Of a DNA stretch of 49,399 nt, positions 30,389 through 39,385 are shown piece by piece. The stretch's first letter is position 1. Every line of letters begins with the position of its first letter. Both the position numbers and the translations under genes were made by a program. The notes under the pieces were generated by a model. That model worked only from the letters and a program-made list of their open reading frames with translations. It was not told the DNA's origin and did not search any database. The stretch comes from an uncultured Thomasclavelia sp. (lineage in GTDB: Bacteria; Bacillota_I; Bacilli_A; Erysipelotrichales; Coprobacillaceae), in NCBI RefSeq assembly GCF_944324745.1, contig NZ_CALUXO010000038.1, positions 1 through 49,399 on the forward strand. The letters run 5' to 3'.

Positions 30389-31510
30389 ATGAAAACAAAA
30401 AGATTTGAAAAATTAGGAATTGAACCTTCATTATTAGGGTTTGGGTGTATGCGTTTTCCATTGGATGCAAATGGTAAAATAGATGAGGCTGAGGCTAAAA
30501 AAATGATTGATAAAGCTATAAGTGCCGGGGTTACATATATTGATACTGCTTATCCTTATCATAATGGGGATAGTGAACCATTTGTAGGAAAAGTATTAAA
30601 AGAATATCCTCGAGATAGTTTTTATCTGGCAACTAAACTACCAGTCTGGCAGGTTAACAGTCAACAAGATGCTTTGGATATCTTTGAAGAACAGTTGAAA
30701 CGGCTGGATGTCGATTATATTGATTTTTATTTATTGCATGCTTTAGATAGTGAAAAATGGCAGAAAGTATTAGATTATGATTTACTATTAATGGCTGAAA
30801 AACTAAAAGAAGAAGGAAAAATCCGTTATTTTGGTTTTAGTTTCCATGATGAATTTGATGTTTTTCAAGAAATTCTTGAATATTATCCATGGGATTTTTG
30901 CCAATTGCAGCTAAATTACATGGATATGGATATCCAGGCTGGTATGAAAGGATATCAGTTGGCCGAAAAAAGAGGAGTTCCTATTGTGGTTATGGAACCA
31001 ATTAAAGGTGGTTCTTTGGCAAACTTACCACAAGATATTGCTCAAAAATTTTTAGACTACGATCCTAGTCGCAGTATTTCATCATGGGCTTTAAGATATG
31101 TGGCGAGCTTATCTAATGTTAAAGTTGTTCTTAGTGGGATGTCTACTTACGATCAGGTTCTTGATAATTTAAAGACTTTTGAAAATTTTGAATATTTAAA
31201 TGAAGAAGAATTGCACTTAATTCAAGACGTTTGCGATGCTTTAAAGGCAAGAACCCAAAATGGTTGTACTGGATGCAGCTATTGTATGCCTTGCCCATTT
31301 GGAGTGGATATTCCAAGTAATTTTAAATATTGGAATAATGCCTATGTTTATGATAGTCACGAACAGTTTAAAAAGAAATTACTGGCAATGGACGAAAAGA
31401 AACAGGCGGCTAATTGTCGTAAGTGCGGTAAATGTGAAACATTATGTCCACAACATTTGGCAATTCGTGAGGATTTAGATAAAGTGAGTCAATATTTAAA
31501 AGGTGAGTAA
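30389..31510 (+). CDS. Aldo/keto reductase with C-terminal ferredoxin domain
   Basis: 373 residues. The AKR barrel spans about 1-280, with the catalytic tetrad visible as Asp/Tyr in YIDTAYPYHNG (about 50-60), Lys in TKLP (about 82-85) and His in LLHAL (about 116-120). The C-terminus carries a 2[4Fe-4S]-type region: CTGCSYCMPCPFGVDIP (about 294-310) and CRKCGKCETLCP (about 345-356). Such fusions are common in anaerobes and probably couple NAD(P)H or ferredoxin to reduction of an unknown carbonyl. RBS is GTAGGAGGA. It is upstream of treR but separated by 228 bases with a hairpin, so not obviously part of the trehalose unit. Confidence 0.93.
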   Translation: MKTKRFEKLGIEPSLLGFGCMRFPLDANGKIDEAEAKKMIDKAISAGVTYIDTAYPYHNGDSEPFVGKVLKEYPRDSFYLATKLPVWQVNSQQDALDIFEEQLKRLDVDYIDFYLLHALDSEKWQKVLDYDLLLMAEKLKEEGKIRYFGFSFHDEFDVFQEILEYYPWDFCQLQLNYMDMDIQAGMKGYQLAEKRGVPIVVMEPIKGGSLANLPQDIAQKFLDYDPSRSISSWALRYVASLSNVKVVLSGMSTYDQVLDNLKTFENFEYLNEEELHLIQDVCDALKARTQNGCTGCSYCMPCPFGVDIPSNFKYWNNAYVYDSHEQFKKKLLAMDEKKQAANCRKCGKCETLCPQHLAIREDLDKVSQYLKGE

Positions 31511-31738: not shown

Positions 31739-32446
31739 ATGAGCAAATATCAGTCAATTTTTCAGCATATTCGAGACGAAATATTGAACGGCACGATTGA
31801 AGCCAATACATATTTGCCTAGTGAAAGTGAATTACAAAAAGAATTTAATGCTTCTCGAGATACAATTAGAAAAGCATTGGATTTATTACTTAGAAATGGT
31901 TATATTCAAAAAGAAAAAGGTAAAGGTTCACTAGTATTAGATGTAAATAAAATAAATTTTCCGGTCTCTGGAGTCATGAGTTTTAAAGAATTACAAGCAA
32001 CGATGAATGAAAAAGTAGTGACTTATGTTCATAAGTTTGTTAAGTATCCTGTAACACCAAAGATGAAAAAAGAATTGTATATGGACGAGGGCGATATTTA
32101 TGAAGTTGTTCGAATCCGTGAGTTTAATGGGGAAAAAGTTATTTTAGATACTGATTATTTAAATGCTCAAGTTATACCAGGATTAGAATTAAAACATGCT
32201 CAAAACTCATTATACGAGTATATTGAAGGTACATTGGGGTTAAAAGTTAGTTTTGCTAAAAAAGAGATTGTTGTTGTACCGGCAAGTGACGAGGAAAAAG
32301 CATTATTAGATATGCATGAATATGATTTACTGGTTTGTGTAAAATCATATACTTATTTAGATGATGCGACGTTATTTCAATATACGGAATCTAAGCATCG
32401 ACCTGACAAATTTAGATTTGTGGATTTTGCCAGAAGAACGCCATGA
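31739..32446 (+). CDS. treR: Trehalose operon repressor TreR (GntR/HutC family)
   Basis: 235 residues, the usual length. N-terminal winged helix-turn-helix (FQHIRDEILNGTIEANTYLP, SESELQKEFNASRDTIRKAL; residues about 7-50) and a C-terminal UTRA effector domain (VYEVVRIREFNGEKVILDTDYL, described in parts at about 120-142; LLVCVKSYTYLDDATLFQYTES at about 198-219). TreR of Firmicutes is released from DNA by trehalose-6-phosphate. It precedes the trehalose catabolic genes on the same strand but is closed off by two tandem terminators, so it is a separate transcript. Probable operators are the TATACGTACAA elements at 32576-32630 and 38147-38163. Confidence 0.88.
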   Translation: MSKYQSIFQHIRDEILNGTIEANTYLPSESELQKEFNASRDTIRKALDLLLRNGYIQKEKGKGSLVLDVNKINFPVSGVMSFKELQATMNEKVVTYVHKFVKYPVTPKMKKELYMDEGDIYEVVRIREFNGEKVILDTDYLNAQVIPGLELKHAQNSLYEYIEGTLGLKVSFAKKEIVVVPASDEEKALLDMHEYDLLVCVKSYTYLDDATLFQYTESKHRPDKFRFVDFARRTP

Positions 32447-32569: not shown

Positions 32570-32632
32570 TTGACAACATATACGTACAAGCGTAATATAA
32601 TAGCCGTCAAAGATACGTATACGTACAAGTTG
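32570..32632 (+). promoter_or_regulatory. Trehalose operon promoter with two TreR-type operators
   Basis: TTGACA (32570-32575) with either TAATAT at 17 bases (32593-32598) or TATAAT at 20 bases (32596-32601) as -10. Two copies of TATACGTACAAG lie in the spacer (32579-32590) and just downstream of the start point (about 32619-32630, preceded by ATACG). The half-site TATACGTACAA and its complement TTGTACGTATA match the palindromic operators expected for a GntR/TreR repressor. One site would block RNA polymerase binding, the other elongation. Confidence 0.7.
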
Positions 32633-32656: not shown

Positions 32657-35329
32657 ATGAATATCTTAAATTTGGTATTTAACGATCAAGCAGTCGACAT
32701 TTTTGATCAAGATATCAAGAAAGATACAGTGACGATAACTAGTCCCTTTGATAAAAAATCAGCTGATGAACTTATTGGAAAATTAAAAGACATCAGTGAA
32801 TTTGATGGAGGGCTAATTATTGGCTTAAAAAATGCTGTCTTTAAAGATGGCGAAAATACTTTTGATTTAGTGCAATTAATGATTGAAGCACTAAATAAAC
32901 CATTTGCATTAAAAAATGATAACGATGATGCTGAAAAATTATTAAGCACTGTTCAAGAAGAAGTTATCTGGAATTTGAAATATGTAGGATATCATCCTGG
33001 TAAAGATGAATATTCTGTGGAATCGCTTTTAACAGTTGGTAATGGATATTTTGGATTACGGGGAACTCTTCCAGAAATGAGAATTTCTGATGATCATTAT
33101 CCAGCTACTTATTTTGCTGGGTTATACAATCAGGCAAAATCACAAATTGGTGATGCAACAGTTACTAATGAAGATTTTATTAATGCTCCTAACGGACAAT
33201 ATTTAAGTGTAATTGTTGATGGTGAGTTATTAGATATTACTTCACAAAATATCTTATCACTTACAAGAACTTTAAATTTAAAAAATGGGTTATTTGAATC
33301 AAAAATGGTAGTTGAATTCAACAATAAAAAACAATTATTAGTTGAAACGGCTAAAGTTGCCAATATGAAAGATACTCATGAATATGCTATTGAATATAAA
33401 GTTACTCCTTTAAATTTTAGTGGCAATATCACTTTAGTTTCTGAAATTGATGGTGATGTTTATAACTATAACGTAGCCCGTTATCGTAGTCTGGAACAAC
33501 ATCATTTAGACATCTTAGAAACTAATGGACTTGATAGTAAAGCAGTATTAGTTGCAAGAACAAAACAATCTAAGTTTACAATTATCCAACAAACAGAATT
33601 AATGGGGGATGTAGTAGCTAATAATGAAGTAGTAAATGATGTTCAAGCTAATAAAGTAAGACAAACAATTGAAGTTGCAGCTAAAGAAAATGAAACAATT
33701 TCAATTGAAAAATATGTTCATGTATTATGTTTGACCAATAAACAAATTGATCAGACTGACACTGTAAAAAATAGTGAAATTTTGGCTAAACGTTTTGCTT
33801 CAATCTTAGAAGAATCTGCCAATGCCTGGCAAGAATTATGGATTAAAACTGATATTGAAGTAAGTGGTGATTTAATGTCACAAAAATTATTGCACTTGCA
33901 TACGTATCACTTATTAGTATCTGGATCACCAAATGGTAATAAAGATTTAGATGCTTCAATTACAGCTAGAGGATTACATGGGGAAGCCTATCGCGGTCAT
34001 ATTTTCTGGGATGAAATTTTCATCTTGCCATTTTATATCATGCATTTTCCTCAAACAGCAAGACAGTTATTAATGTATCGTTATGATCGTTTACCAGCTG
34101 CAAAAGTTGCTGCTAAAGAAGCTGGATATCAAGGAGCAATGTTCCCATGGCAATCTGGTTTAGAGGGGACAGAACAATCACAAGAAATCCATTTAAATCC
34201 TATGAGTGGAAAATGGGATAAAGATTATAGCCGTTTACAACGCCACGTATCATTAGCGGTTGCTTATAATGTCTGGTTATATTGGAATAATACTCATGAT
34301 CAGGATTTCATGGAAAAATATGGAGTGGAATTGTTATTAGAAATTGCTCATTTCTGGCAAAGTGCTGCTACATATGATGAAACGACTGGCCGTTATTATA
34401 TTGATAAAGTGATGGGACCAGATGAATTCCATGAAACTTATCCAGGTAGCGAAGAAGGTGGATTCAAAAATAATGCTTACACTAATATGATGGTTGTCTG
34501 GTTATTTGAATTCGTCAGTCAAATTAAAGAAATTGTTGATGAAGATAAATTATCTGCTATTGTTGCTAAAGTTGCTTTAACTAAAGATGAATTAGCCACA
34601 ATGGATGAGATTAAATCTAAATTAGGTTTAGAAATTGATCAAGATGGAATCATTGGGCAATATGAAGGATATTTTAAATTAAAAGAAGTTGACTTTGATT
34701 ATTATCGGGAAAAATACGGAAACATTTACCGAATGGATCGTATTTTAAGAGCTGAAGGAAAATCTGCTGATGATTACAAAGTTGCTAAACAAGCGGATAC
34801 ATTAATGATCTTCTACAATTTTGCTAAAGAAAAAGTTGATCAGATTTTATCAGATTTAAATTATCAGTTACCAGAAGATTATTTGACTAAAAACTTAATG
34901 TATTACCTAGATAGAACTTCACATGGTTCAACTTTGTCAAGAGTTGTTCATTGCCAATTAGCAGCAATGGTTGGTAACCAAGATATGGCATGGAAGTTAT
35001 ATCAAGAAGCTTTATATTCAGATTATCAAGATATTCAAGGTGGAACTACTGCTGAGGGAATTCATGCTGGTGTAATGGCAGCAACAATTTATATTACCTT
35101 AAGTACATTTGCGGGGATCGATATTAGGGAATCAAGATTACACGTTTGTCCAAACTTACCAGAAAAATGGGATTCAATTAAGTTTAACATCGATGTAAAT
35201 AATATTAATTATCAATTTGAAATTACAGCTAATAACTGCAAGATTACTGCCAGTCAAGATACAGTAATAGATTTCATGAATCAAGAATGTCAATTATTAG
35301 CTAACGAAACAAAAAGTATGGATTATTAA
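32657..35329 (+). CDS. GH65 phosphorylase, probable trehalose-6-phosphate phosphorylase
   Basis: 890 residues from ATG 32657, preceded by GGAAGGAAGAGAGGCG; the longer upstream frame crosses the promoter and is excluded. The GH65 fold begins near residue 110 (NLKYVGYHPGKDEYS, SLLTVGNGYFGLRG at about 128-141). The catalytic (alpha/alpha)6 barrel has HIFWDEIFILPFY (about 448-460), the general acid Glu in MGPDEFHE (about 585-592), and RTSHGSTLS (about 754-762) for phosphate binding. The first about 100 residues are an extra domain of unknown role. Placement between treR and pgmB, with a trehalose-type PTS after, indicates cleavage of trehalose-6-P by phosphate to glucose-6-P and beta-glucose-1-P; kojibiose or maltose phosphorylase activity cannot be excluded from sequence. 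Confidence 0.85.
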   Translation: MNILNLVFNDQAVDIFDQDIKKDTVTITSPFDKKSADELIGKLKDISEFDGGLIIGLKNAVFKDGENTFDLVQLMIEALNKPFALKNDNDDAEKLLSTVQEEVIWNLKYVGYHPGKDEYSVESLLTVGNGYFGLRGTLPEMRISDDHYPATYFAGLYNQAKSQIGDATVTNEDFINAPNGQYLSVIVDGELLDITSQNILSLTRTLNLKNGLFESKMVVEFNNKKQLLVETAKVANMKDTHEYAIEYKVTPLNFSGNITLVSEIDGDVYNYNVARYRSLEQHHLDILETNGLDSKAVLVARTKQSKFTIIQQTELMGDVVANNEVVNDVQANKVRQTIEVAAKENETISIEKYVHVLCLTNKQIDQTDTVKNSEILAKRFASILEESANAWQELWIKTDIEVSGDLMSQKLLHLHTYHLLVSGSPNGNKDLDASITARGLHGEAYRGHIFWDEIFILPFYIMHFPQTARQLLMYRYDRLPAAKVAAKEAGYQGAMFPWQSGLEGTEQSQEIHLNPMSGKWDKDYSRLQRHVSLAVAYNVWLYWNNTHDQDFMEKYGVELLLEIAHFWQSAATYDETTGRYYIDKVMGPDEFHETYPGSEEGGFKNNAYTNMMVVWLFEFVSQIKEIVDEDKLSAIVAKVALTKDELATMDEIKSKLGLEIDQDGIIGQYEGYFKLKEVDFDYYREKYGNIYRMDRILRAEGKSADDYKVAKQADTLMIFYNFAKEKVDQILSDLNYQLPEDYLTKNLMYYLDRTSHGSTLSRVVHCQLAAMVGNQDMAWKLYQEALYSDYQDIQGGTTAEGIHAGVMAATIYITLSTFAGIDIRESRLHVCPNLPEKWDSIKFNIDVNNINYQFEITANNCKITASQDTVIDFMNQECQLLANETKSMDY

Positions 35330-35341
35330 AAAGGAGAAATA

Positions 35342-35998
35342 ATGGTCATGAAAAAGGGTTTAGTATTTGATTTAGATGGCGTAATTACTGATACAGCAAA
35401 ATTCCATTATCAGGCATGGAAAGCATTAGCTGACTCAATTGGTATTGCTATTGATTTACAATTTAACGAACAATTAAAAGGAATTAGTCGCATGGACTCT
35501 TTAGATCGTATCTTAGTTCATGGTGGTAAAGAAAACGACTATTCAGCAGCTGAAAAAGAAGCAATGGCAGCTGATAAAAATGCTAATTATGTCAAATTGT
35601 TAGATGCTTTAACACCTGATGATTTATTACCAGGGGTGAAAAATTTTCTAGATCAAGCTAAAGAACTTAATATTCCTTGCTCTTTAGCTTCAGCATCAAA
35701 AAATGCACCATTCATCCTAAAAAAATTAGGTGTTTATGATTACTTTGATGCTATTGTTGATCCAGCGTCATTAAAGAAGGGAAAACCTGATCCAGAAATC
35801 TTTATTAAAGCAGCCCAATTAATTAATTTAGAGCCATTTGAAGCTATCGGATTCGAAGATGCTCAAGCAGGAATTGCTGGTATTAAAGAAGCTGGAATGT
35901 ATGCAGTAGGAGTTGAAGGAAGCGAACCATTAACTCAAGCTGATATGACAATTAAAAGTTTTGAAGAATTAAATATTCAAGAATTAATGAATGTATAA
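35342..35998 (+). CDS. pgmB: Beta-phosphoglucomutase
   Basis: 218 residues, typical for the enzyme. HAD motif I VFDLDGVITDTAKFHYQAW (about 8-26) holds the Asp nucleophile and acid/base pair, followed by the cap with KGISRMDSL (about 46-54; substrate-binding Arg), motif II ASASKN (about 117-122), motif III Lys in KKGKPDPEIF (about 146-155) and GFEDAQAGIAGIKEAG (about 171-186). It converts beta-glucose-1-phosphate to glucose-6-phosphate, completing phosphorolytic trehalose use. It starts 12 bases after the GH65 gene with AAAGGAGA, so the two are one transcript. Confidence 0.95.
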   Translation: MVMKKGLVFDLDGVITDTAKFHYQAWKALADSIGIAIDLQFNEQLKGISRMDSLDRILVHGGKENDYSAAEKEAMAADKNANYVKLLDALTPDDLLPGVKNFLDQAKELNIPCSLASASKNAPFILKKLGVYDYFDAIVDPASLKKGKPDPEIFIKAAQLINLEPFEAIGFEDAQAGIAGIKEAGMYAVGVEGSEPLTQADMTIKSFEELNIQELMNV

Positions 35999-36011
35999 AT
36001 AATAATGACAA

Positions 36012-36125
36012 AATAATTACTCTCTTCGAGCAATAATAACCTTACAATTGTTCATATATTAATATCTCTTATCATATATATTTCCTTTTACACATTTTAA
36101 TCTATATTCGAAGAGAGTGATTATT
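36012..36125 (+). repeat. Long inverted repeat between pgmB and the PTS gene
   Basis: Arms 36012-36029 and 36108-36125 pair over 18 bases with one G-U (AATAATTACTCTCTTCGA against its complement), enclosing 78 bases of AT-rich DNA. No gene lies inside. In the transcript it would make a stable stem inside the operon, a plausible RNase III site or stability element separating pgmB from the PTS message. No T-run follows the right arm, so it is not a simple terminator. Confidence 0.75.
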
Positions 36126-36174
36126 GATTAGGTTGGTTTAGTTAGATAAAACAAATATAACAGGAGGATAAAAA

Positions 36175-37527
36175 ATGGGGAAATTTGAAAAAGACGCCAA
36201 AGATTTGTTAGAATATGTTGGCGGAAAAGAAAACATTAATGCCGTTACTCATTGTGTTACTAGAATGCGTTTTGTTTTGGCTAATCCAAAAAAAGCGGAT
36301 ATCGACAAAATTGAAGCGCTACCATCTGCTAAAGGAACTTTTACACAATCTGGACAATTCCAGGTTATTATCGGAAATGAAGTTACTGAATTCTATGATG
36401 ATTTTGTTGCTGTAAGCGGTATCGAAGGAGTCAGCAAGGATGCCGTTAAAGATGCTTCAAAAGGGCAACAAAATTTAATTCAAAGAATTATGTCTAATTT
36501 AGGTGAAATCTTCGCACCGTTAATTCCAGCATTGATTTGTGGTGGGTTGATTTTAGGGTTTAGAAATGTTATTGGTGAAATTAATTTCTTCAATAATGGA
36601 ACTCAAAGTTTAGCTGATATTTCTCAATTCTGGGAAGGAACTTATAATTTCTTGTGGTTAATTGGTGAAGCAGTATTCCACTTATTACCAGTAGGTATTG
36701 TTTGGTCAATTACTAAGAAAATGGGTACTACTCAAATCTTAGGAATTATCTTAGGGTTAACATTAGTATCGCCACAATTATTAAATGGTTTCAGTGTTGC
36801 CTCTACTCCAGCATCTGAAATTCCAGTATGGGATTTTGGTTTTGCTCAAGTACAGATGATTGGTTATCAAGGTCAAGTAATTGCCGCAATGATGGCCGGA
36901 TTTGTCTTAGTATATTTAGAAAAATTCTTTACTAAGATTACTCCAGCAATCGTTAATATGATCGTTGTTCCATTTTGCTCATTAGTACCAGCTGTTATTA
37001 TCGCTCACGTAGTTGTTGGTCCAATTGGATGGGCAATTGGAAATTTCATTGCTGATGTTGTTTATGGTGGCTTAACATCTAACTATGGTGTATTATTTGC
37101 TGCAATCTTTGGTTTAGTTTATGCGCCAATCGTTATGACTGGTTTACATCATATGACTAACGCTATTGATACTACTTTGTCGAATATGTTTGGTGGAACA
37201 ATCTTATGGCCAATGATTGCTTTATCAAATATTGCGCAAGGTTCAAGTGTTCTTGCTATGACTATCTTACAAAAACATAATGAAAAAGCACAACAAGTTA
37301 ACGTACCAGCATGTATTTCATGTTATTTAGGGGTTACAGAACCAGCATTGTTCGGGGTTAACTTAAAATATGGTTTCCCACTAGTTTGTGGTATGATCGG
37401 TTCATGTGTGGCTGCAGTTATCTCAGTTGGATTTGGGTTGAAGCATTTAGTATTGGTGTTGGCGGTTTACCAGGAATTATTTCAATTAAACCAGAATACT
37501 GGGCACCATTTATCATGGCCATGGTAG
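36175..37527 (+). CDS. treP: PTS trehalose transporter EIIBC part (reading frame broken near 37436)
   Basis: The frame begins after an AGGAGGA site. Residues about 1-80 are the EIIB domain with phosphorylated Cys in NAVTHCVTRMRF (about residue 27). The EIIC domain follows (about 100-425) with many membrane helices and GVTEPALFGVNLKYGFP (about 384-400). At 37435-37437 (TTTGGGTTG) the frame departs from the family; the true continuation (EAFSIGVGGLPGIISI) is in the adjacent frame and runs to 38096. One missing base, probably G, joins the two into a single 640-residue EIIBCA protein. After the shift only 30 meaningless codons follow to the stop at 37527. It imports trehalose as trehalose-6-phosphate in the membrane. 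If the deletion is real, the last EIIC helices and the EIIA domain are lost. Confidence 0.88.
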   Translation: MGKFEKDAKDLLEYVGGKENINAVTHCVTRMRFVLANPKKADIDKIEALPSAKGTFTQSGQFQVIIGNEVTEFYDDFVAVSGIEGVSKDAVKDASKGQQNLIQRIMSNLGEIFAPLIPALICGGLILGFRNVIGEINFFNNGTQSLADISQFWEGTYNFLWLIGEAVFHLLPVGIVWSITKKMGTTQILGIILGLTLVSPQLLNGFSVASTPASEIPVWDFGFAQVQMIGYQGQVIAAMMAGFVLVYLEKFFTKITPAIVNMIVVPFCSLVPAVIIAHVVVGPIGWAIGNFIADVVYGGLTSNYGVLFAAIFGLVYAPIVMTGLHHMTNAIDTTLSNMFGGTILWPMIALSNIAQGSSVLAMTILQKHNEKAQQVNVPACISCYLGVTEPALFGVNLKYGFPLVCGMIGSCVAAVISVGFGLKHLVLVLAVYQELFQLNQNTGHHLSWPW

Positions 37528-38096
37528 TTGCAATCGTAATTCCATTTGTTTTAACTTTAATTGTTGGTAAAAAGAAATTAGGAGCTGCTCAAAAAGAAGA
37601 AGAAGCAAAAGTGGCTGAAAATAATGAAATGGTTATTGAAACTAACGGTGAAAATGTTTTCGTTAGTCCAATGAAAGGTAGATTCATGCCTTTAAGTGAA
37701 GTAGAAGATCAAGTATTTTCTCAAGGAATGATGGGTGAAGGTTTTGCAGTTGAATTAACTGATGGTAAAGTTGTTGCCCCATTTGATGGTGAAGTTATCA
37801 TGACATTCCCAACTAAACATGCTTATGGTTTAAAAAGAGCTGGAGATGGAGTTGAAATCTTGATTCATATCGGTATGGATACTGTACAATTAGAAGGTAA
37901 AGGTTTTGAAAGTTTTGTTGAAGTTGGCGATCAAGTAAAAGCTGGTCAAACTATTGCTAAAGTTGATTTAGATTATGTAGTTGAAAATGGAAAATCAGTG
38001 GTTTCTCCAGTTGTCTTCACTGGTGGACAACATATTACTTTAAAAGATATCAAAGAAGTAAATCAAGTTGATCGTGATATCTTAGAAATTAACTAA
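37386..38096 (+). CDS. treP: PTS trehalose transporter EIIC end and EIIA domain (second piece of the frameshifted gene)
   Basis: Meaningful protein starts at about 37437 (EAFSIGVGGLPGI); the preceding in-frame codons from 37386 are a shadow of the EIIC frame. It holds the last EIIC helix (APFIMAMVVAIVIPFVLTL), a charged linker (AAQKEEEAKVAENNE), then a glucose-type EIIA domain: FVSPMKGRFMPL, VVAPFDGEVI, and the active-site His in EILIHIGMDTVQLEGKGF. There is no ribosome binding site for separate translation, so this is the 3' part of the upstream gene. EIIA receives phosphate from HPr and passes it to EIIB. A terminator at 38106-38140 ends the operon. Confidence 0.82.
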   Translation: MWYDRFMCGCSYLSWIWVEAFSIGVGGLPGIISIKPEYWAPFIMAMVVAIVIPFVLTLIVGKKKLGAAQKEEEAKVAENNEMVIETNGENVFVSPMKGRFMPLSEVEDQVFSQGMMGEGFAVELTDGKVVAPFDGEVIMTFPTKHAYGLKRAGDGVEILIHIGMDTVQLEGKGFESFVEVGDQVKAGQTIAKVDLDYVVENGKSVVSPVVFTGGQHITLKDIKEVNQVDRDILEIN

Positions 38097-38105
38097 TAAA
38101 ATAAT

Positions 38106-38140
38106 AAGAGATGATTTTACTAATAAATCATCTCTTTTAA
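38106..38140 (+). terminator. Terminator of trehalose operon
   Basis: AAGAGATGATTT/AAATCATCTCTT stem with TACTAAT loop followed by TTAA; the run of T is modest. Confidence 0.7.
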
Positions 38141-38141
38141 C

Positions 38142-38170
38142 TTGACAACATATACGTACAAGTTTATAAT
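38142..38170 (+). promoter_or_regulatory. Consensus promoter with TreR-type operator, facing non-coding DNA
   Basis: TTGACA (38142-38147), 17-base spacer, TATAAT (38165-38170). The -35 box and the next 15 bases (ACATATACGTACAAG) are identical to the trehalose operon promoter at 32570-32590. Transcription should start near 38177. Confidence 0.8.
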
Positions 38171-38176
38171 ATTTTT

Positions 38177-38330
38177 TGTCGTGAAGAGTGCATCCATATT
38201 TTAATAGAATTATTAATATGAGCAGTAAATAATTCATAAAATAAAAGATAAAATTCTAAATCACATAACGCTTACCTATAATAGCACTCTTTACAGCTGG
38301 GTTAAAAGATGCCACTGGCATCTTTTTATA
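38177..38330 (+). ncRNA. Candidate TreR-regulated small RNA
   Basis: The region from the predicted start (about 38177) to the terminator (AAAAGATGCC ACT GGCATCTTTTTAT, 38304-38330) would give an RNA of about 150 nt. No open frame with a ribosome binding site is present. The ends are complementary: GTGAAGAGTGC (38181-38191) pairs with GCACTCTTTAC (38284-38294), 11 bp with one G-U, closing a large AT-rich loop before the terminator hairpin. The promoter carries the same operator as the trehalose operon, so the RNA should appear when trehalose-6-P is present. Targets are unknown. A very long leader for the aldo/keto reductase gene at 38465 is an alternative, but the terminator argues against it. 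Confidence 0.6.
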
Positions 38331-38464
38331 TTGGAATCTTTTTTGGCTTAATGACAATAGTATTTTTAAATGCTGCTAATTTCTAAATTAAGTAGCTTTT
38401 ATTGAAATGATAATGGTGGTAAAACTAATGAACAGATAGATATTTGGGATAGGAGGAATTTAAA

Positions 38465-39385
38465 ATGAAGTATTTTAAGTTGCCAAAGACTGATTTGACG
38501 GTGTCGCGAATTGCTCTTGGATGTATGCGAATCGCTGATAAATCAGTCGAAGAAGTAGCTAAATTAGTAGAGACAGCTTTAAATTTAGGAATTAATTTTT
38601 TTGATCATGCTGATATCTATGGTGGCGGTAAATCTGAAGAATTATTCGGTGAGGTATTAAAGCAACACCCGGAATATCGTAAAAAGATGGTCATTCAAAC
38701 CAAATGTGGTATTGTACCTGGGAAACGATATGATTTTTCTAAGGAACATATTATAAGTAGTGTTGAACAATCACTTAAAAGATTAAATTGTGATTATATT
38801 GATATTTTGTTATTGCATCGTCCCGATGCTTTGGCTAATTATCAAGAAGTAGCTGCGGCGTTTGATGAATTATATGAAAGTAAGAAGGTTAGATATTTTG
38901 GAGTTTCTAACCATACACCATTACAAATAGAATTATTACAAAAATATAGTAAATATCCAATCATTATTAATCAATTACAATTATCAATTGTCCATTCAGT
39001 GATGATTGATTCAGGATTGAATATGAATATGAAAGAAGCCTGGGCACAAGATAAAGATGGTGGTGTCCTAGATTATTGTCGTTTGCATGATATTACGATT
39101 CAGCCATGGAGTGTTTTACAAGCATCATGGGCTGAAGGAACATTTATTGATAATCCTGATTATGCTAAGTTAAATGAAAAATTAGATGAACTGGCTCAAG
39201 AATATCAGGTTAATAAGACGGCTATTGCTATTGCTTGGTTATTACGACATCCAGCTATTATGCAGCCGATTGTTGGTACTACTTCACCAAAACATCTTCA
39301 AGAGACAGTGGCGGCAATTGATGTAGAGCTTACAAGACAACAATGGTATGATTTGTATTTAGCTAGTGGGAAACCATTACCATAA
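38465..39385 (+). CDS. Aldo/keto reductase (YdhF-like)
   Basis: 306 residues with the complete AKR tetrad: Asp/Tyr in FFDHADIYGGG (about 46-56), Lys in IQTKCG (about 77-82), His in LLLHRPD (about 117-123). LGCMRIADKS at the start and the NADPH-binding PIVGTTSPKHLQE (about 275-287) fit the YdhF/AKR-11 group. RBS GATAGGAGGA precedes the ATG. It would reduce an unknown carbonyl compound with NAD(P)H in the cytosol. It is followed by a strong hairpin, so it is monocistronic. Its promoter is unclear; readthrough from the upstream TreR-type promoter is possible. Confidence 0.9.
   Translation: MKYFKLPKTDLTVSRIALGCMRIADKSVEEVAKLVETALNLGINFFDHADIYGGGKSEELFGEVLKQHPEYRKKMVIQTKCGIVPGKRYDFSKEHIISSVEQSLKRLNCDYIDILLLHRPDALANYQEVAAAFDELYESKKVRYFGVSNHTPLQIELLQKYSKYPIIINQLQLSIVHSVMIDSGLNMNMKEAWAQDKDGGVLDYCRLHDITIQPWSVLQASWAEGTFIDNPDYAKLNEKLDELAQEYQVNKTAIAIAWLLRHPAIMQPIVGTTSPKHLQETVAAIDVELTRQQWYDLYLASGKPLP

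Follow-up and report, generated by a model that had tools for sequence, protein, structure and literature searches.

The best-known small RNAs (sRNAs) wired to single sugar regulators are those of enteric bacteria. The site of the sRNA ChiX on the chbBC mRNA is intercistronic, and SR1 of Bacillus subtilis is a Firmicute sRNA under carbon-source control. Induction of SgrS depends on the activator SgrR and occurs during sugar-phosphate stress; the RNA also codes for SgrT, binds Hfq and pairs through a region close to its 3' end (PMC4021124). ChiX pairs with the mRNA of the chbBC sugar-uptake operon in Escherichia coli and Salmonella (PMC6191717). SR1 additionally codes for the small protein SR1P (PMC8152036) and is unrelated in sequence and context to the Thomasclavelia RNA described here. 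The nearest literature report is that of SR1754950 from group A Streptococcus, a candidate sRNA of about 100 nt located downstream of and opposite to treR, which likewise adjoins the trehalose repressor gene, but for which neither TreR control nor a shared structure is reported (PMC2765633). We found no TreR-controlled small RNA in the open literature, and no small-RNA reports for this lineage.

We analysed a 49,399 nt stretch of DNA (the window) from an uncultured Thomasclavelia sp. (genome G000), in which a trehalose operon is followed by a candidate RNA gene. Our overall reading, to which we assign a probability of roughly 0.6, is that this block encodes a TreR-repressed structured sRNA that is co-induced with trehalose uptake and is probably a base-pairing regulator. 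The genes of the locus all lie on the forward strand and comprise treR, the trehalose operon repressor (31739-32446; TIGR02404, 274 bits against a cut-off of 212), a GH65 sugar phosphorylase gene (32657-35329), the beta-phosphoglucomutase gene pgmB (35342-35998; TIGR01990, 274 bits against a cut-off of 189) and a trehalose PTS gene encoding EIIBC and EIIA (36175-38096; TIGR01992 and TIGR00830). The phosphorylase is probably trePP (trehalose-6-phosphate phosphorylase), judging by a below-cut-off NCBIfam GH65 match together with the context of pgmB and a trehalose PTS. In this assembly the PTS gene is frame-shifted near 37437, beside a short G run, and is read as two ORFs (36175-37527 and 37386-38096). 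A sister species of Thomasclavelia (genome G008) has the gene intact; the frameshift reflects either misassembly or the recent loss of the ability to take up trehalose.

The original prediction placed a perfect TTGACA-17-TATAAT promoter just past the operon terminator, and our analysis confirmed both points. The terminator of the trehalose operon is a hairpin at 38106-38136, present in the sister species too, and ends 6 nt ahead of the sRNA promoter (38142-38170, forward strand), which matches at 12/12 positions and carries the TreR operator ACATATACGTACAAG in its spacer. This was the sole 12/12 site across the 6 kb scanned, the runner-up reaching 10/12. Its first 21 nt (TTGACAACATATACGTACAAG, 38142-38162) match 32570-32590 in the promoter of the trehalose operon base for base; the predicted identity between the two promoters holds for the -35 element and the operator but does not extend to the last two spacer bases or the -10 element (TATAAT vs TAATAT). 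An operator search of the trehalose operon promoter (32570-32629, forward strand) found two TreR operators, at 32579-32590 and 32618-32629, the second of which is absent from the sRNA promoter. In the whole 2.76 Mb genome there are three copies of the operator 12-mer TATACGTACARG, all of them at the trehalose/sRNA locus; a reversed control pattern gave none. Near the sRNA promoter, no catabolite (cre) site with fewer than three mismatches was found. The TreR regulon features at the locus are the treR gene itself and the TreR-type operator in the sRNA promoter. In B. subtilis TreR acts as a repressor; assuming the same here, the shared operator would make the sRNA co-induced with the trehalose operon, with TreR repressing both and releasing the sRNA promoter once trehalose enters the cell. 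The TreR of Clostridioides difficile binds the treR and treA promoters and may be an activator (PMC10569727). Separately, a TreR-operator-like sequence was seen in another species of the genus (L217 about 1501; G003:C86:2405-2416). It overlaps the ribosome-binding site in front of a gene that probably encodes a ROK-family sugar kinase; this gene is possibly a further TreR target.

The block shows three features of a bacterial intrinsic-terminator sRNA gene, namely its own promoter, its own intrinsic terminator and no coding frame, and would constitute a free-standing gene whose product is a structured non-coding RNA of roughly 150 nt (38178-38331, forward strand). We infer a start at the G of GUCGUG, 8 nt past the -10 element (7 nt in the sister species). 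The ends of the RNA had been predicted to pair over 11 bp, and they do so in a closing stem, P1, whose 5' arm GUGAAGAGUGC (38181-38191) and 3' arm GCACUCUUUAC (38284-38294), both on the forward strand, form 11/11 pairs, including five G-C, and span approximately 92 nt; a comparable stem appeared in 0/1000 dinucleotide shuffles. The fold as a whole has a z-score of -4.5 against shuffles, both with and without the terminator. A long A+U-rich hairpin, P2 (38197-38243, forward strand), is predicted in both species with differing stem sequences and a 13-nt apical loop holding AURUGAGCRG, and is weak when considered alone (z -1.3 and -2.2). Closer to the 3' end lies a conserved block predicted to be single-stranded, ACGCUURCCUAUAA (38268-38281, forward strand). 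The apical loop could pair with CGCUUR in this block (UGAGC/GCUUA), over 5 bp in the window and over 7 bp in G008; such pairing arises by chance in 0.10-0.16 of loop shuffles per species, because of which we treat the putative pseudoknot as a possibility only. The RNA is closed, as predicted, by an intrinsic terminator, AAAAGATGCC-ACT-GGCATCTTTT plus T (38304-38327, forward strand; stem arms 38304-38313/38317-38326; -12.6 kcal/mol); the sister species has a terminator in the corresponding position, although its sequence differs. Our terminator scan missed it because the U-run pairs with its own A-run.

The prediction of about 150 nt without an open frame was borne out by comparison of the window with G008, in which no reading frame is conserved on either strand. 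Short GTG-led frames do share a starting position in the two species (MKSASIF and MKSVTGYLKK), as they might if the transcript were an mRNA for a very small protein, but they lack a ribosome-binding site, differ in length and resemble each other only within the conserved stem; coupled with the lack of a conserved frame, this makes a coding role barely credible. A discrete TreR-controlled sRNA is a reading that we hold with good confidence.

The RNA resembles SgrS in being an sRNA with an intrinsic terminator, encoded beside the gene of a sugar-responsive regulator and tied to PTS uptake (PMC4021124). It differs from SgrS in its TreR repressor operator and 11-bp closing stem, and the two show no sequence relation. 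No SgrT-like frame is conserved between the window and G008, although the SgrT frame is missing from some SgrS homologues too (PMC4021124); no SgrR activator lies next to the sRNA, the adjoining regulator being TreR; and no match to Rfam, SgrS included, was obtained even at E = 5. For these three reasons the sRNA is not an SgrS, and an SgrS-like function is an analogy rather than membership. The predicted TreR-controlled structured sRNA gains support from the conservation of its promoter, RNA start, P1 and terminator and from the adjoining TreR gene. The SgrS-like sugar-phosphate-stress role gains none: there is no SgrT-like frame, and the promoter would be de-repressed by a sugar repressor rather than driven by a stress activator.

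Comparison of nine genomes of the genus revealed the block in one other genome only, G008, where the whole promoter-to-terminator arrangement occupies the same position. The gene order there is as in the window: PTS gene, operon terminator, promoter with operator, RNA, terminator and aldo/keto reductase gene. A further sequence, L034 (from a Thomasclavelia MAG, isolate MAG.139), seems to belong to the assembly of G008 and contains the other half of the operon. Between the window and G008, 29/30 positions of the promoter (the 29-nt promoter plus one base) are identical, as are 15/15 at the inferred RNA 5' end (TTGTCGTGAAGAGTG) and 13/14 in the block ACGCTTRCCTATAA, whereas coding regions are 82-89 % identical in protein and only about 45-67 % identical at four-fold sites. 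P1 keeps 11/11 pairs in G008 through four substitutions, comprising one inner pair changed on both sides (C-G to U-A) and two one-sided compatible changes; covariation is limited to these because the RNA is found in only two species. The remainder of the RNA has diverged between the species yet folds alike (z -4.5 in the window, -3.9 in G008), and the A+U-rich P2 hairpin retains its loop motif in both. This pattern bears on the alternative that the promoter is a relic of an operon-promoter duplication and the RNA functionless. The 21 nt shared with the operon promoter and the restriction of the RNA to two species are what such a relic would leave, but the 15/15 and 13/14 blocks, the stem and the terminator have been maintained while about half of the neutral sites changed, and we consider it very unlikely. 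In G008 we also observed a sequence of approximately 110 bp, with the word TATACGTACAGG inside an inverted repeat, that opens contigs C124, C334, C339 and C375 near base 62-77, as the end of a repeated or mobile element would.

Aldo/keto reductase genes flank the cassette in the window (30389-31510 and 38465-39385), with treR-trePP-pgmB-PTS-sRNA between them, whilst in G008 the cassette is present without the first reductase. In another species (G002), both reductase genes are adjacent, 18 nt apart (L234 2900-4968), and probably form one operon. The simplest reading of these arrangements is that the cassette, or its precursor, was inserted between the reductases and that the RNA belongs to the cassette. 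Related treR-trePP-pgmB cassettes (L033, L035 and L036) were found in Anaerostipes and Fimousia, with TreR 84-87 % and PgmB 82-85 % identical, levels that suggest transfer of the cassette between distant gut Firmicutes. Within the fetched DNA, pgmB is not followed by a PTS gene in these cassettes, and a second TreR-type promoter is absent.

Insertion of the cassette would also have cost the second reductase its upstream promoter, which makes it worth keeping a further alternative: that the reductase gene at 38465 has the block as its regulated leader, in which TreR sets initiation, the terminator serves as an attenuator and the RNA is mainly a by-product. The reductase gene lies 3' of the RNA in both species, and in the window no promoter above 9/12 was found between 38329 and this gene. 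Against this, a strong terminator is kept in both species, the window has a second terminator-like hairpin at about 38370-38396 (-8.5 kcal/mol), G008 has a 10/12 promoter directly before the gene, and the reductase has no evident link to trehalose. No antiterminator is apparent, because P1 and the terminator are separate and do not overlap; a possible pairing in the window (AGUG-CAUC/GAUGCCACU) is absent in G008 and was discarded. Overall, we regard a leader role as unlikely.

If the block is a discrete TreR-controlled sRNA, it is likely to be a base-pairing regulator, for which the conserved apical loop and/or the ACGCUURCCUAUAA block would provide the seeds. The start of the PTS gene had been proposed as a target, but no site is predicted there; our single candidate is in the leader between pgmB and the PTS gene, about 120 nt upstream of that start, and its statistics are weak. 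The leader (36015-36127, forward strand) is predicted to form a long-range stem (z -3.8, -3.3; core ACTCTCTTCG/CGAAGAGAGT) that encloses about 75 nt and is found in the sister species too (L034 5664-5760); the loop at 36047-36057 (AUUGUUCAUAU) is the best candidate target. The arms of this stem resemble those of the sRNA closing stem, with strands swapped. Targets were scored by helix energies plus accessibility, and sites were judged orthologous within 25 columns of a MAFFT alignment. In both species, the best leader pairing joins the sRNA apical loop to (A/U)UUGUUCAUAU in the loop of the conserved stem, and this was the top orthologous site in the operon, with a joint energy of -14.0 kcal/mol; the next sites, which are coding, were close (-12.5 and -12.2 kcal/mol). 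Shuffled leaders did as well in 10/150 cases for the window and 1/150 for G008. Compared with natural 200-nt stretches, the leader pairing ranked 212/984 in the window and was about the sixth distinct site of 136 stretches in G008. We keep the site as a candidate only, because it is ordinary against natural sequence in the window and modest in G008, and it is doubtful that the PTS leader is the main target. Targets complementary to the 3' block were also considered and rejected, there being 33 matches in G000 against 86 for a control and none at a shared ribosome-binding site.

Pairing with the leader just upstream of the PTS gene of its own operon would give feedback on uptake, and the distance of about 120 nt from the PTS start codon implies that the effect would be on leader processing or stability, without direct occlusion of the ribosome-binding site. 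Were the leader the true site, the logic would be similar to that of ChiX, except that ChiX has its own locus and is destroyed by the induced operon mRNA, whereas the Thomasclavelia RNA would be co-induced with the operon. A more elaborate version, in which a new RNA family travels in a transferable trehalose cassette and its apical loop kisses the leader-stem loop to exert feedback on its own PTS mRNA, is speculative and rather improbable.

A different possibility is that mRNA is not the partner and that the RNA instead binds a protein or small ligand, serving as a 6S-like decoy, a protein sponge or a sensor. The compact fold in both species (closing stem, long hairpin and possible pseudoknot), P1 arms that are both more conserved in sequence than pairing alone needs, and the lack of a convincing mRNA target all fit such a role. 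The size class and long closing stem are also reminiscent of 6S RNA, but the sRNA does not match the 6S model (RF00013), and the Rfam search returned nothing beyond a chance match in the operon terminator. Moreover, both genomes hold a separate 6S-like RNA, located in G000 at G000:C85:67271-67437 (L176; 40.5 bits, Rfam cut-off 46.4) and also represented in G008; it appears to be a divergent 6S of the lineage despite scoring under that cut-off. With the pseudoknot not significant either, we think a protein- or ligand-binding role improbable.

The TreR-controlled sRNA appears to be narrowly distributed. Searches with a covariance model (R1) plus a motif pattern covered 43 family genomes, 40 relatives (under laxer filters) and 316 genomes of the order, and none gave a third copy, with the proviso that the covariance-model search scored part of the first-look candidates and distant copies may be missed. 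Weak covariance-model matches elsewhere (E 0.16 and above) were mostly in coding-looking sequence, without a TreR promoter, and were not accepted. The best reading is that the sRNA would represent a lineage-restricted RNA family, new in itself but of a known kind, with good support for the gene and with transcript and target still proposals. Sequence and comparison establish its promoter, operator and terminator, the conserved fold, the lack of an ORF and the conservation in the sister species, which support this reading; from them we infer transcription, TreR control, base-pairing and a target.

Base-pairing by the sRNA would most likely serve to tune sugar uptake or carbon metabolism for as long as the trehalose pathway is active. 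If this is true, a gut Firmicute has a compact and testable TreR-controlled RNA whose promoter, start, stem and terminator are conserved, and a catabolic cassette can come with an RNA regulator of its own.
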